DNA of 64,000 nucleotides from Bryobacteraceae bacterium (GTDB lineage Bacteria; Acidobacteriota; Terriglobia; Bryobacterales; Bryobacteraceae), in contig JAIEMJ010000033.1 in NCBI GenBank assembly GCA_019752335.1, positions 1 to 64,000 on the forward strand. The letters run 5' to 3'. The notes beneath the pieces are model-generated. The model searched no databases. It was given only the letters and a program-made list of their open reading frames with translations, and was not told the origin of the DNA. How positions within the stretch are numbered: position 1 is the stretch's first letter; every line of letters begins with the position of its first letter. Position numbers and translations under genes: made by a program. Below, piece by piece: positions 24,748-29,246 of this stretch.

Positions 24748-25977
24748 ATGAAACTCCTCATTCTTGCCCTCTCCGCCTCCCTCTGCTACAGCCAGGCCGT
24801 ACCCGACCCGGCTTTCGATACCGCGCGTTTGGCCCGCATTGATCGACTCCTCGAGCGCTACGTCGACCAGAACAAAATCGCCGGCGCCGTGGCGCTGGTG
24901 CTGCACGACGGCAAGCCTGTCTACGAGCGCGCCGTCGGCTGGGCCGACAAGGAAGGCGGCAGCCGCATGACCGTCAATACCGTATTCCGCATCGCCTCCC
25001 AAACCAAGGCCATCACCAGCGCCGCCGTGTTGACCCTGGTGGAAGAGGGCAAGATCGGCCTACAGGACCCCGTCGGCAACTACATTCCGACTTTCGCCAA
25101 GACCCAAGTCGCCCTCCCCGGCGACTCGGCCCTCGTGCCCGCCAAACGCGCCATCACCATCAAGGACTTACTCACCCACACGGCCGGCATCTCCTACGGC
25201 ACCGACAAGCACGTCGCCGACCTTTACCGTGCCAAAGGCCTAGGCCCAGCGGCGGGCAACGGCTGGTACACGGCCGATAAGGACGAGCCCGTCTGCGAAA
25301 CGATGGAACGCCTGGGAACGCTACCCTTCGTCGCCCAACCGGGCGAGGCTTACGTCTACGGCTACAACACCGACATTCTCGGCTGTGTGGTGGAGAAGGC
25401 CTCCGGCATGCCGCTCGACGAGTTCATTCGCACGCGCATCACGGTGCCGCTCGGCCTGAAAGATACGCGCTTCTATCTACCGGCGGCGGAAAGCGGCCGG
25501 TTGGCGGCGGTGTATGCGAGCGGCCCGGACGGCCTCGCGGTTCGCGCGCCGGAGGGGCCGAAGGGGCAGGGGAACTACATCGAGGGTCCGCGCAAGAGCT
25601 TCTCCGGTGGCGCGGGACTTACTTCCACGGCGCGCGACTACGCGCGCTTTCTGGAGATGATCCGCAATGGCGGCGCCCTGAACGGCGTGCGCATTCTGGC
25701 GCCGCGCACCGTGGAGCTCATGGTGACGAACCAATCGGGCACGCTGCATTCGAATACCGGTTTGGGCTTTGGCCTCGGCTTTCAAACCGTGGACCGCTAC
25801 GGCGCCAGCGGCATGGCCGGCGTCGGCGCCTTCGGCTGGGGCGGGGCGTACGGCACCAATTATCAAGTGGATCGCCAAAGCGGCACGGTAATCGTGCTGA
25901 TGATCCAATTGATGCCGAACGCCACCGACATCAGCAGTAAGTTCTCCACGCTGGTTTACCAGTCGCTGATGAAGTAA
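24748..25977 (+). CDS. Secreted serine hydrolase (class C beta-lactamase family)
   Basis: A 409-residue protein with a signal peptide (KLLILALSASLCYSQ) and penicillin-binding-fold motifs: Ser-x-x-Lys in FRIASQTKAI (Ser about residue 83), Tyr-x-Asn in YVYGYNTDILG, and a C-terminal FGWGGAYGTNY in place of the KTG box (WGG, as in esterase-type members). It most likely hydrolyses esters or D-amino-acid peptides rather than beta-lactams. The N-terminal DRLLERYVDQNKIAGAVALV and LLTHTAGISYG are characteristic of the EstB/class C group. ATG 24748 is the first start after the repeat element. It is transcribed away from the secreted-protein gene. Confidence 0.88.
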   Translation: MKLLILALSASLCYSQAVPDPAFDTARLARIDRLLERYVDQNKIAGAVALVLHDGKPVYERAVGWADKEGGSRMTVNTVFRIASQTKAITSAAVLTLVEEGKIGLQDPVGNYIPTFAKTQVALPGDSALVPAKRAITIKDLLTHTAGISYGTDKHVADLYRAKGLGPAAGNGWYTADKDEPVCETMERLGTLPFVAQPGEAYVYGYNTDILGCVVEKASGMPLDEFIRTRITVPLGLKDTRFYLPAAESGRLAAVYASGPDGLAVRAPEGPKGQGNYIEGPRKSFSGGAGLTSTARDYARFLEMIRNGGALNGVRILAPRTVELMVTNQSGTLHSNTGLGFGLGFQTVDRYGASGMAGVGAFGWGGAYGTNYQVDRQSGTVIVLMIQLMPNATDISSKFSTLVYQSLMK

Positions 25978-26052: not shown

Positions 26053-26622
26053 TTACTTTAGCTTTTTGAGCGCCGCCAGGATCATTTCGTTCGTCGGACG
26101 GACTTTGTAATCCTTCTCCGTGAACTTCCACGTCACCTTGCCTTGCTTATCCAGCACATAGGTGGTGGGATGCGGCAAGAAGCGTCCGCGCGCGGCGGCC
26201 TCCGCATTCAGCAGCCCGTACCGGTCAATCACGGCGTGGTCCGCGTCAGCGAGCAGAGTAATCAGGAACTGGCCATCGGTGCGGGCCTTTACCTTCGGAA
26301 TAATGTCGCCGAGCTTTTCGAGCGGATCGGGCGCGATGGCCACGATGGTGGTGCTCTCCTTCAGGGCGGCGGGTAGCAGGTTGTGCAACTCAACTAGTTG
26401 CGTGGCGCAGTACGGTCACCAGTAGCCGCGATAAAAGACGAGCACGGTATTCTTGCCCCGCAGGGAAGCCAGGCTTACCTTGCCGCCGGCGGCGGAGGGC
26501 AGGTCAAAGGGGAGAGCATCGTCACCGACTTTGACGCGGTCCAGATCAGAGGCCGGAGTCTGGGCTATGGCCGTGCCGGCCATGGCCAGCAACGCGGCCC
26601 TTCTCGAAAAATGAATGTCCAT
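26053..26622 (-). CDS. Exported peroxiredoxin-like protein, probable selenoprotein (in-frame TGA = Sec69)
   Basis: The frame runs from ATG 26622 to the stop ending at 26053 with one internal TGA at 26418-26416 (189 residues counting Sec). The TGA stands between VLVFYRGYW and PYCATQLVEL, exactly where AhpC/TSA-family proteins have the first Cys of the YRGxWCPYC motif, giving a U-x-x-C pair (Sec69, Cys72). Homology continues on both sides in the same frame (GDDALPFDLPS before; FLPHPTTYVLDKQGKVTWKF after). A SECIS-like hairpin follows. The N-terminus (HFSRRAALLAMAGTAIAQ) has a twin-Arg-like export signal. It should reduce peroxides in the periplasm. The gene lies 28 bp behind a thioesterase gene on the same strand. 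A nonsense mutation is the alternative; I consider it less likely. Confidence 0.82.
26385..26401 (-). promoter_or_regulatory. Candidate bacterial SECIS element
   Basis: On the mRNA, bases 15-20 after the UGA (GCAACU) pair perfectly with bases 26-31 (AGUUGC), leaving a 5-nt loop AGUUG with GU at positions 2-3. In E. coli fdhF-type SECIS elements the SelB-binding apical loop lies about 16-37 nt after the UGA and has G within its first two bases, followed by U. This hairpin satisfies that spacing and loop rule while lying inside the coding frame. Confidence 0.65.
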
Positions 26623-26650: not shown

Positions 26651-27079
26651 TTATTCCCGATTACTTCTCATCACGCTTTGCTGCAAGGCCGCACAGTGCC
26701 GCCGCTGGCCACTTTGCTCCACGTGGACGTCCACCCGGGTGACCACGACGGACTGTCCGGCCCGCAGCACCCGCGCATCGGCGATGATGCGTTCACCCGC
26801 CGCAGGCCGCAGAAAATTGATCTTGTACTCCATCGTCAGCACGTCGCAGCCGGCGGGCAGCGCCGTCAGCGCGGCGTAGCCTCCGGCCGTATCGGCGACC
26901 GCGCCCACCACGCCGCCGTGGAAGAAGCCATTCTGCTGCGTGACCGCCGCGGAGAACGGCACCTCCACGACGCAGCGGCCCTCTTCCATCTCGCCCAGGA
27001 CGGCCCCGAGACTCCGCTGCAGCCCTTGGCTCGCGAAGCTGGCGCGCAGTTCGCTCTCTTTTTCCGGTGTTAGGCTCAC
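26651..27079 (-). CDS. PaaI-type hotdog thioesterase
   Basis: A 142-residue single hotdog-fold protein. QNGFFHGGVVGAVADTAGGYAAL is the signature helix of PaaI/YbgC-type acyl-CoA thioesterases, with catalytic-site HGG and the Asp of ADTAGG; TMEYKINFLRPAAGERIIADARVLRAGQ is the following sheet. It should hydrolyse aryl- or acyl-CoA esters in the cytosol. The start is GTG 27079, with TAGAAT exactly 6 nt upstream and no Shine-Dalgarno, so its mRNA may be leaderless. It is followed after 28 bp by the probable selenoprotein gene and is divergent from the acylase gene, 28 bp between starts. Confidence 0.85.
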   Translation of the reverse strand: MSLTPEKESELRASFASQGLQRSLGAVLGEMEEGRCVVEVPFSAAVTQQNGFFHGGVVGAVADTAGGYAALTALPAGCDVLTMEYKINFLRPAAGERIIADARVLRAGQSVVVTRVDVHVEQSGQRRHCAALQQSVMRSNRE

Positions 27080-27107: not shown

Positions 27108-29246
27108 ATGCTCCTCGCATTTCTGTTGACGGCCATGGTCTGCGCCGCTGAAGTCCCCGCCGAAATGGCCCGCTGGCAACGCCAGGCGCAAGGCATCCGC
27201 ATCGTGCGGGACGACTGGGGCATCGCCCACGTCTACGGCAAAACCGACGCCGACACCGTCTTCGGCGCCATGTACGCGCAGGCCGAAGACGACTTCAACC
27301 GCGTCGAAACGAACTACCTGAACGCCATGGGCCGCCTGGCTGAAGCCGAGGGCGAAGCGAAGATCTACCAGGATCTGCGCATGAAGCTGTTCATCGATCC
27401 GGCGGAGCTACGTCAGCAATATGCGGCGAGTCCGCTGTGGCTGAAGAAATTGATGAACGCCTACGCCGACGGCTTGAATTACTACTTGGCGAAGCATCCG
27501 GAGGTGAAGCCGCGCGTGATTCAGCGCTTCGAGCCGTGGATGGCCTTGAGCTTCACCGAAGGCAGCATCGGCGGCGACATTGAGAGCATCAATCTGCGCC
27601 AACTGGAAGACTTCTACGGTGGCACGCGCACCGCGCGCGCCGAGTTGGAGACGCTTCCCGCCGAGCCGGGCGGCTCCAACGGCGTGGCGATTGCCCCGGC
27701 GAATACCAAGGGTAAGCACGCTCTTCTCCTGATTAATCCTCATACCTCTTTCTACTTCCGGTCAGAGTTACAGATGGTGAGCCAGGAAGGCTTGAACGCC
27801 TACGGCGCTTCCACTTGGGGGCAGTTCTTTATCTACCAGGGCTTCAACGACCGTGTCGGCTGGATGCATACCACCAGCGGCATCGACACGATTGACGAGT
27901 ATCTGGAAACCATCGAAAAACAAGGCGCGAACTACGTCTATCGCTACGGCGGCGCGACGCGGCCCGTGATTACCAACCGCATCACGATTCCTTATCGCAC
28001 CGCCACGGGCCAAGCGGCCAAAACCTTCACGGTCTACCGCACACACCACGGGCCCGTCATTCGCGGCGCCGACGGCAAATGGGTTACCGTGCGCCTGATG
28101 CACGAACCGGTGAAGGCGCTGTCGCAGTCTTACTTGCGCACCAAGGCGAAGAATTACGCGGAGTACGTCAAGACGATGGAATTGAAAACGAATTCCTCGA
28201 ACAACACCATCTACGCCGACGCCGACGGGAACATCGCTTACTTCCATGGCAATTTCCTGCCGAAGCGCGATCCCCGCTTCGACTGGACGAAACCCGTCGA
28301 TGGCAGCAACCCGGCCACCGAATGGGGCGACTTACACGCGCTCGGTGACTTACCCAGCTTCAAGAATCCTTCGAACGGGTGGCTCTACAACGCGAATAAC
28401 TGGCCCTGGTCCGCCGCCGGTGCGCAGAGCCCGAAGAAAGAGAATTATCCGGCCTACATCGAAAGCGGTATCGAGAATCCGCGCGGCCTGCATGCCCTGC
28501 GCGTGCTCGACAACGTGAAGGACTTCACCGTCGACTCGCTGCTGGCCGCCGCCTACGACTCTTACTTACCCTGGTTCGAGAAAACCATTCCCGCCCTACT
28601 GAAGGCCTACGACGCCAGTCCGCGGCCGGCCCTTGCCGCGCAAATCGACTTACTCCGGGCCTGGAATCTGCGCTGGTCCGTCACCTCGGTACCGACGTCG
28701 CTCGCCGTGTTTTGGGGCGAGGAGTTACGCCGTCAGAATCCCGCCAATCTCCGCGCCGTCAATTTGCCGCTCGCCGACTATGTCGCGACGCAGGCTCCCC
28801 CGGCTTTGTTACTCGACGCGCTGGAGTCCGCGTCCAAAAAACTCACCGCGGACTTCGGACAATGGAAGACGCCCTGGGGTGACATCAATCGCTTCCAGCG
28901 CGTGAACGGCGACATCGTACAACCCTTCAACGACGCCGCGCCCAGCCTGCCCGTGGGCTTCACCTCGGCTACCTGGGGCTCGCTCGCCTCTTTCGGCGCG
29001 CGCGCCTATCCGGGCACCAGGAAGTGGTACGGCACCAGCGGCAATAGCTTCGTCGCGGTGGTGGAGTTCGGCAAGCAGGTAAGAGCACGGGCCATTTCGG
29101 CGGGCGGCGAAAGCGGCCTGGTGAATTCGAAGCACTTCTACGACCAGGCGCAGCGATATTCGGAAGGCAACTTACGCGAAGTTTACTTCTATCCAGCACA
29201 AATTCGCGCGCATACCGAACGCGAGTACCGCCCAGGAATCAACTAG
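27108..29246 (+). CDS. Penicillin-acylase-family N-terminal-nucleophile hydrolase
   Basis: A 712-residue exported protein (signal LLAFLLTAMVCAAEV) organised as an Ntn hydrolase proenzyme: alpha region with IRIVRDDWGIAHVYGKTDADTVFG, spacer to about residue 190, then GGSNGVAIAP, whose Ser would become the nucleophile after self-cleavage. The beta chain keeps LLINPHTSFYF and the TTSGIDTIDEY region. Members cleave amides such as acyl-homoserine lactones, aculeacin-like lipopeptides or penicillins; the substrate is not predictable here. ATG 27108 is preceded by TAAGAT at 6 nt, so a leaderless transcript is likely. The gene is divergent from the thioesterase/peroxiredoxin pair. Confidence 0.88.
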   Translation: MLLAFLLTAMVCAAEVPAEMARWQRQAQGIRIVRDDWGIAHVYGKTDADTVFGAMYAQAEDDFNRVETNYLNAMGRLAEAEGEAKIYQDLRMKLFIDPAELRQQYAASPLWLKKLMNAYADGLNYYLAKHPEVKPRVIQRFEPWMALSFTEGSIGGDIESINLRQLEDFYGGTRTARAELETLPAEPGGSNGVAIAPANTKGKHALLLINPHTSFYFRSELQMVSQEGLNAYGASTWGQFFIYQGFNDRVGWMHTTSGIDTIDEYLETIEKQGANYVYRYGGATRPVITNRITIPYRTATGQAAKTFTVYRTHHGPVIRGADGKWVTVRLMHEPVKALSQSYLRTKAKNYAEYVKTMELKTNSSNNTIYADADGNIAYFHGNFLPKRDPRFDWTKPVDGSNPATEWGDLHALGDLPSFKNPSNGWLYNANNWPWSAAGAQSPKKENYPAYIESGIENPRGLHALRVLDNVKDFTVDSLLAAAYDSYLPWFEKTIPALLKAYDASPRPALAAQIDLLRAWNLRWSVTSVPTSLAVFWGEELRRQNPANLRAVNLPLADYVATQAPPALLLDALESASKKLTADFGQWKTPWGDINRFQRVNGDIVQPFNDAAPSLPVGFTSATWGSLASFGARAYPGTRKWYGTSGNSFVAVVEFGKQVRARAISAGGESGLVNSKHFYDQAQRYSEGNLREVYFYPAQIRAHTEREYRPGIN

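Follow-up and report, generated by a model that had tools for sequence, protein, structure and literature searches.

Known peroxiredoxin-like selenoproteins and the present gene

Peroxiredoxin-like (Prx-like) proteins in which selenocysteine (Sec) is the first residue of a UxxC motif were already published by 2005 at the latest, and the gene analysed here therefore does not found a new family. Passages of the 2005 Sargasso Sea survey place 'Prx-like' UxxC selenoproteins among the known families (PMC1088965), and part of the 2008 Global Ocean Sampling survey gives 225 sequences for Prx-like 1, a pfam00578 group with the UxxC motif (PMC2398784). Prx-like thiol:disulfide oxidoreductase selenoproteins are also reported from bacterial genomes in sections of two other papers (PMC1794560, PMC5029168), and Prx-like UxxC proteins appear in the available portion of a 2026 catalogue (PMC13188914). 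Homologues with cysteine in place of Sec exist, according to passages of three of these sources (PMC1088965, PMC2398784, PMC13188914). As for the host phylum, an excerpt of a 2006 study credits Acidobacteria with 4 selenoproteins of 3 families (PMC1794560), and an excerpt of a 2025 study scores one acidobacterium with 3 known selenoproteins (PMC12013277). Among the open-licence papers listed by our searches, few dealt with the selenoproteins of Acidobacteriota and none with the present acidobacterial clade.

The gene lies at 26053..26622 on the minus strand of the stretch of 64,000 nucleotides that we analysed (the window), which belongs to a member of the Bryobacteraceae. When TGA is translated as Sec (U), positions 26622 to 26053 encode 189 residues, MDIHFSRRAALLAMAGTAIAQ...LVFYRGYWUPYCATQL...KKLK, followed by TAA, and the sole TGA in this frame is codon 69 (26416..26418, minus strand). 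A preliminary description, made from the DNA sequence, had proposed a new selenoprotein here. Its coordinates and details proved correct, and the strand, which it left unstated, is minus. The word 'new' holds for the gene itself and not for the kind of protein, since Prx-like UxxC selenoproteins are already described in the passages available to us of earlier papers (PMC1088965, PMC2398784, PMC13188914). The product matches PF00578 (AhpC/TSA) with an E-value of 2e-25 and 89.6 bits, against a cut-off of 26, and this match together with the predicted fold identifies it as a peroxiredoxin-like protein. The TGA, in the context FYRGYW-U-PYC, stands just where the first Cys of the YRGxWCPYC motif was said to be replaced; the translation and an alignment with the PrxQ-type structure 2ywn place the resulting redox motif, Sec69-Pro70-Tyr71-Cys72, at 26407..26418 (minus strand). 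Under the standard code (table 11), the gene falls into two fragments, as anticipated, one of 68 amino acids (26622-26416) and one of 111 (26388-26053). It is thus a clear and well-conserved case of one gene cut in two by the standard reading, and it leaves the picture of what selenoproteins are unchanged.

Several described groups resemble the protein in part. With the Prx-like UxxC selenoproteins, whose published members (e.g. WP_010940744.1) were compared by description only, it has in common PF00578, a UxxC motif that begins with Sec, and the existence of Cys homologues; it differs from them in being acidobacterial, in its probable export signal, and in belonging to a clade in which 14 of the 14 loci read have TGA. 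Sec-containing peroxiredoxins of the TxxU kind (Prx) share PF00578 and the peroxiredoxin fold, but their Sec occupies the fourth, peroxidatic place, whereas Sec in the present protein is at the Thr position (UPYC), which is not a TxxU arrangement. Proteins of the PrxQ/BCP type (2ywn, 4g2e and Bcp4, 3hjp) are alike in fold (Z 20.5-21.7) and the second Cys aligns with theirs, but the identity is 22-27%, and 2ywn has Thr where our protein has Sec. SelL proper has the motif UxxU. The model for SelL-related redox proteins (NF040769) gives a weak match of 30.7 bits, far under its curated cut-off of 120. The cd02970 peroxiredoxin-like selenoprotein, compared by motif, has UxxS, unlike the UPYC found here. 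No NCBIfam model scored above its cut-off on the window protein, the best being the thiol peroxidase model PRK09437 with 50.8 of the 140 bits needed.

Conservation of the TGA codon among homologues

Protein searches at E <= 1e-15 gave matches in 79 of 396 genomes of the phylum, with a TGA-interrupted match in 67, and in 63 of 257 genomes of the order, with a TGA-interrupted match in 55. The 68 loci that we read are the better-scoring matches, namely the best 30 of the phylum search, 29 more from the order and nine from a contig scan, and the Sec-protein query favours Sec relatives among them. Nine of these loci, eight of them from the contig scan, are second copies, which leaves 59 distinct rows. 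For matches whose locus was not fetched, TGA was tallied as an internal stop with its position unread; these matches are included in the comparison with selA below.

Among the 68 best-scoring loci, copies included, the codon aligned with residue 69 is TGA in 59, TGC in five, TGT in three and ACC in one. Hence TGA or a Cys codon, which the preliminary description had proposed to look for in homologues, is present in 67 of 68. Counting distinct best-scoring loci (n=59), the residue is encoded by TGA in 50, and is Cys in eight and Thr in one. All 14 rows of the window's own clade (support 99/99) have TGA, one of them being frameshifted downstream. As was also claimed, protein is conserved in the same frame on both sides of the TGA, with identities of 60-77% for the eight rows nearest in the alignment. 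Two kinds of relative had been named as evidence against a selenoprotein. A residue other than Cys or Sec occurs in one distant homologue only (L085, BCP-type, 32% identity, with the Thr codon ACC), but an additional frame break does exist in one relative. This relative is a Bryobacterales MAG, represented by a locus and its copy (L056 and L069), in which the frame changes about 18-20 codons past the TGA, through either an assembly error or decay of the copy.

On the tree of the homologues, the distribution of Sec and Cys requires four changes, at least two of which are forced by well-supported branches; the two residues have therefore been exchanged more than once, whichever of them came first. 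None of the plasmid homologues (87 records) reaches 60% identity, and the one that was opened, from Rhizobium, has Cys. A related branch of 14 rows with support 100/100 (L043, L070, L071, L073-L076 and L078-L084) has TGA in every row read. Its motif is mostly RSADWUP(Y/F)C, with 266-285 residues following the TGA, and it may be a separate, longer group of Sec-containing redoxins with a C-terminal extension.

A conserved hairpin downstream of the TGA

Bases 15-31 past the TGA (26385..26401, minus strand) can form the hairpin GCAACU-AGUUG-AGUUGC, with the perfect 6-bp stem and the AGUUG loop that the preliminary description gave for this place. The loop has 5 nt and begins 20 nt from the UGA, and its second position is G, followed by U. 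According to the portion available of the 2026 catalogue, bacterial SECIS elements have a stem of 4-16 bp, a loop of 3-9 nt with G as its first or second base, a distance of 16-37 nt from the UGA and a minimum free energy of at most -7.5 kcal/mol (PMC13188914). The candidate element agrees with all of these published values (5 nt, 6 bp, G, 20 nt), in energy barely so, at -7.6 kcal/mol for the UGA plus 51 nt, and the earlier claim about its distance and GU rule is borne out. At the gathering thresholds of Rfam, tRNA is the sole match in the window.

In this one gene the hairpin is unremarkable. Compared with dinucleotide shuffles it has a z-score of +1.0, with 166 of 200 shuffles folding as well, and 12% of synonymous recodings (n=300) give an equally good SECIS-like hairpin. 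Taken together, though, the homologues place it far outside what chance would give. For the 20 nearest TGA loci, every one of the 120 cells is paired, and 18 cells are compensatory against a shuffle mean of 5.3, with 0 of 500 shuffles as high (the loci are kin, so these and the following shuffle counts are not probabilities); slid controls on the same loci are 14-38% paired. Pair 18-34 is variously G-C, C-G or U-A there, pair 21-31 is either A-U or G-C, and pair 22-30 is either C-G or U-A; the remaining pairs, three in number, are invariant. When all 49 distinct TGA slices are taken, 94.2% of cells are paired and 42 are compensatory, again with 0 of 500 shuffles as high. No excess over shuffles was found in the number of pairs with double changes (50/500 for the 20 loci, 99/500 for the 49 slices) or in further pair types (434/500 and 186/500, respectively).

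The eight Cys slices, by comparison, have 66.7% of cells paired, a value equalled or exceeded in 247 of 500 shuffles. Compensatory conservation is thus found in the UGA homologues and absent in the Cys homologues, the latter being a small set (n=8). This set retains some pairing, since two measures lean that way (covariation, 36/500; double-changed cells, 49/500). L085, the row with Thr, does not enter this pairing test but is included in the comparison with recodings, where the non-TGA set has nine members. At a threshold of -5 kcal/mol, 48 of 49 TGA slices have a SECIS-like hairpin, versus two of nine non-TGA slices. The mean hairpin energy of the TGA slices is -7.8 kcal/mol versus -2.6 for a synonymous-codon null, and that of the non-TGA slices is -2.8 versus -2.7. 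Taken one by one, 24 of 49 TGA slices and one of nine non-TGA slices fall below 5% of the recoding null.

Selenocysteine decoding in the host genome and its relatives

The host assembly (7.2 Mb in 55 contigs, 97% complete) contains all four of selA, selB, selC and selD, the genes whose presence the preliminary description had suggested checking. The protein profiles match above their curated cut-offs, with 375.6 bits for SelB, 468.4 for SelA and 350.1 for SelD. A match of 69.1 bits to the tRNA-Sec model of Rfam lies at a place that ARAGORN also calls tRNA-Sec, with anticodon TCA (UCA in the RNA); another place in the genome scores 47 bits, equal to the cut-off, and is called tRNA-Ser by ARAGORN. 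The host's SelD gene is interrupted by TGA too, at GUASKL (C9:243525-244424; L015 1435-2415, minus strand), and is a second probable selenoprotein gene. Selenophosphate synthetase is catalogued as a selenoprotein with the motif UxxK in the available part of one source (PMC13188914), which the SelD motif fits. Given this TGA in SelD, codon 69 of the present gene is probably not the sole Sec codon of the genome.

We also compared the occurrence of the gene with that of selA. Across the phylum (n=396), selA is found at E <= 1e-50 in 64 of 67 genomes with a TGA-interrupted match versus 188 of 329 others (Fisher p 4e-11, with kinship ignored), so that three of the 67 are without it. Within the order, where the base rate of selA at this threshold is 208 of 257, 48 of 55 TGA genomes have it; the seven that do not have completeness values of 71, 73, 83, 88, 91, 94 and 99%, and the 99% assembly carries 10% contamination. 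The gene is patchy in its distribution, because the other sampled genome of the host genus has selA yet no match to the protein at E <= 1e-15. By the criterion of a score above its cut-off, selA is present in 250 of the 396 sampled phylum genomes and in 206 of the 257 from the order, so that the capacity to decode Sec is frequent. Sec decoding, and probably exported Sec-containing redox enzymes, are thus common in Acidobacteriota.

Alternative readings of the TGA

The conservation of the TGA, the conserved hairpin, the Sec machinery of the genome and the co-occurrence with selA together make a selenoprotein very probable, and we put the probability that this is a functional gene in which the UGA at codon 69 is decoded as Sec at about 95%. 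A Cys codon that mutated to TGA, or was miscalled as such, is one alternative; TGA is one base from TGC, the standard reading gives two pieces, and one relative is frameshifted. However, 50 of 59 distinct loci, spread over many genera and families, have TGA at the same codon, on which ground we rejected a pseudogene or sequencing error, and the frame is kept on both sides (60-77% identity in the eight nearest rows) along with the hairpin, so such an origin is extremely improbable. An in-frame TGA by itself names no residue, and suppression or an altered code could in principle insert Trp or another amino acid. Where distinct loci lack TGA, though, the residue is Cys in eight of nine and Thr in one of nine, never Trp, which led us to reject this reading; tRNA-Sec, selA and selB are present and the hairpin is at the distance of a SECIS element, and we give decoding as anything but Sec hardly any credence. 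The UGA might also be a true stop that separates a short N-terminal piece from a re-initiated C-terminal one, and a TTG codon does lie ten codons 3' of it. The break would then cut through the active-site motif, where a helix begins that the structural model places at residues 70-82, and the frames of the Cys homologues are uninterrupted. Two separate polypeptides were rejected on these grounds and are highly unlikely.

Predicted structure, export and activity

Under the selenoprotein reading, SelB bound to the hairpin just 3' of the UGA would deliver Sec-tRNA(UCA) to codon 69, and the product would be an exported protein of the peroxiredoxin fold with a Sec-Pro-Tyr-Cys active site. An AlphaFold2 model, for which 33 sequences were aligned, has this fold, with a mean pLDDT of 91.4. 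Its highest-scoring structural matches, with which Foldseek agrees, are the peroxiredoxins Bcp4 (Z 21.7), 2ywn (20.6) and AhpE (20.6). When the protein is aligned with 2ywn, residue 69 falls on a Thr and Cys72 on a Cys, which we take to be the active-site Thr and the peroxidatic Cys of the family. Invariant positions in the 33 sequences, with Sec written as Cys, are L41, F63, R65, residue 69, C72, L79, L124 and R175.

A probable export signal, MDIHFSRRAALLAMAGTAIA (26563..26622, minus strand), was read by eye from the sequence. The N-terminus has SRR, a short hydrophobic stretch and A-I-A before Gln21, and the confidence of the model is low at residues 1-20. The preliminary description saw a twin-Arg-like signal here. 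The window protein does have an Arg-Arg pair within an export-like start, but the pair is present in only four of nine rows at >=60% identity, with SRR or NRR also in L057, L058 and L061. L060, L062, L063, L064 and L066 are without it and start with hydrophobic residues. Export is therefore likely, by either the Tat or the Sec secretion pathway, and the Tat route for the putative signal is uncertain.

Judging from motif and fold, the protein is most likely an extracytoplasmic enzyme, either a thiol:disulfide oxidoreductase or a thiol peroxidase. The selenolate of Sec69 would be the nucleophile and attack a disulfide or a peroxide, Cys72 would resolve the intermediate to give a selenenyl-sulfide, and a thioredoxin-like partner would then reduce this bond again. 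A rival view, which accepts Sec and concerns the chemistry alone, is that the protein is chiefly a peroxidase, in which Cys72 or Sec69 attacks peroxide, and not a thiol:disulfide oxidoreductase. The peroxiredoxin fold with its closeness to Bcp4, 2ywn and AhpE, the placement of Cys72 on the Cys of the PrxQ/BCP position and of residue 69 on the Thr of 2ywn, the distant BCP-type homologue with Thr at residue 69, and the match of the thiol peroxidase model PRK09437 to 33 of 33 members all speak for it. Yet CxxC or UxxC in place of TxxC is the arrangement of thioredoxin and ResA, and the model for ResA recognises 31 of the 33 members; both models are far under cut-off for the window protein itself. 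On balance we would give a predominantly peroxidatic role somewhat less than even odds.

A broader proposal, which we advance as speculative and rather unlikely, is that the protein belongs to an acidobacterial branch of the peroxiredoxin fold, exported and Sec-dominant, that is a regular Sec user in the phylum. Sec would there have taken the place of the catalytic Thr while the Cys of the peroxidatic position was kept, reduction of peroxides or disulfides in the periplasm would proceed through the Sec-Cys selenenyl-sulfide, and Cys forms might be later replacements.

Eight proteins encoded near the gene in the window had no match at E <= 1e-8 beside the orthologues L048-L067, whose flanks cover at most about 3 kb. 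The gene's neighbours in the window are a hydrolase of the beta-lactamase family (24748-25977, plus strand), a 4HBT thioesterase (26651-27079, minus strand) and a protein of the penicillin amidase family (27108-29246, plus strand).
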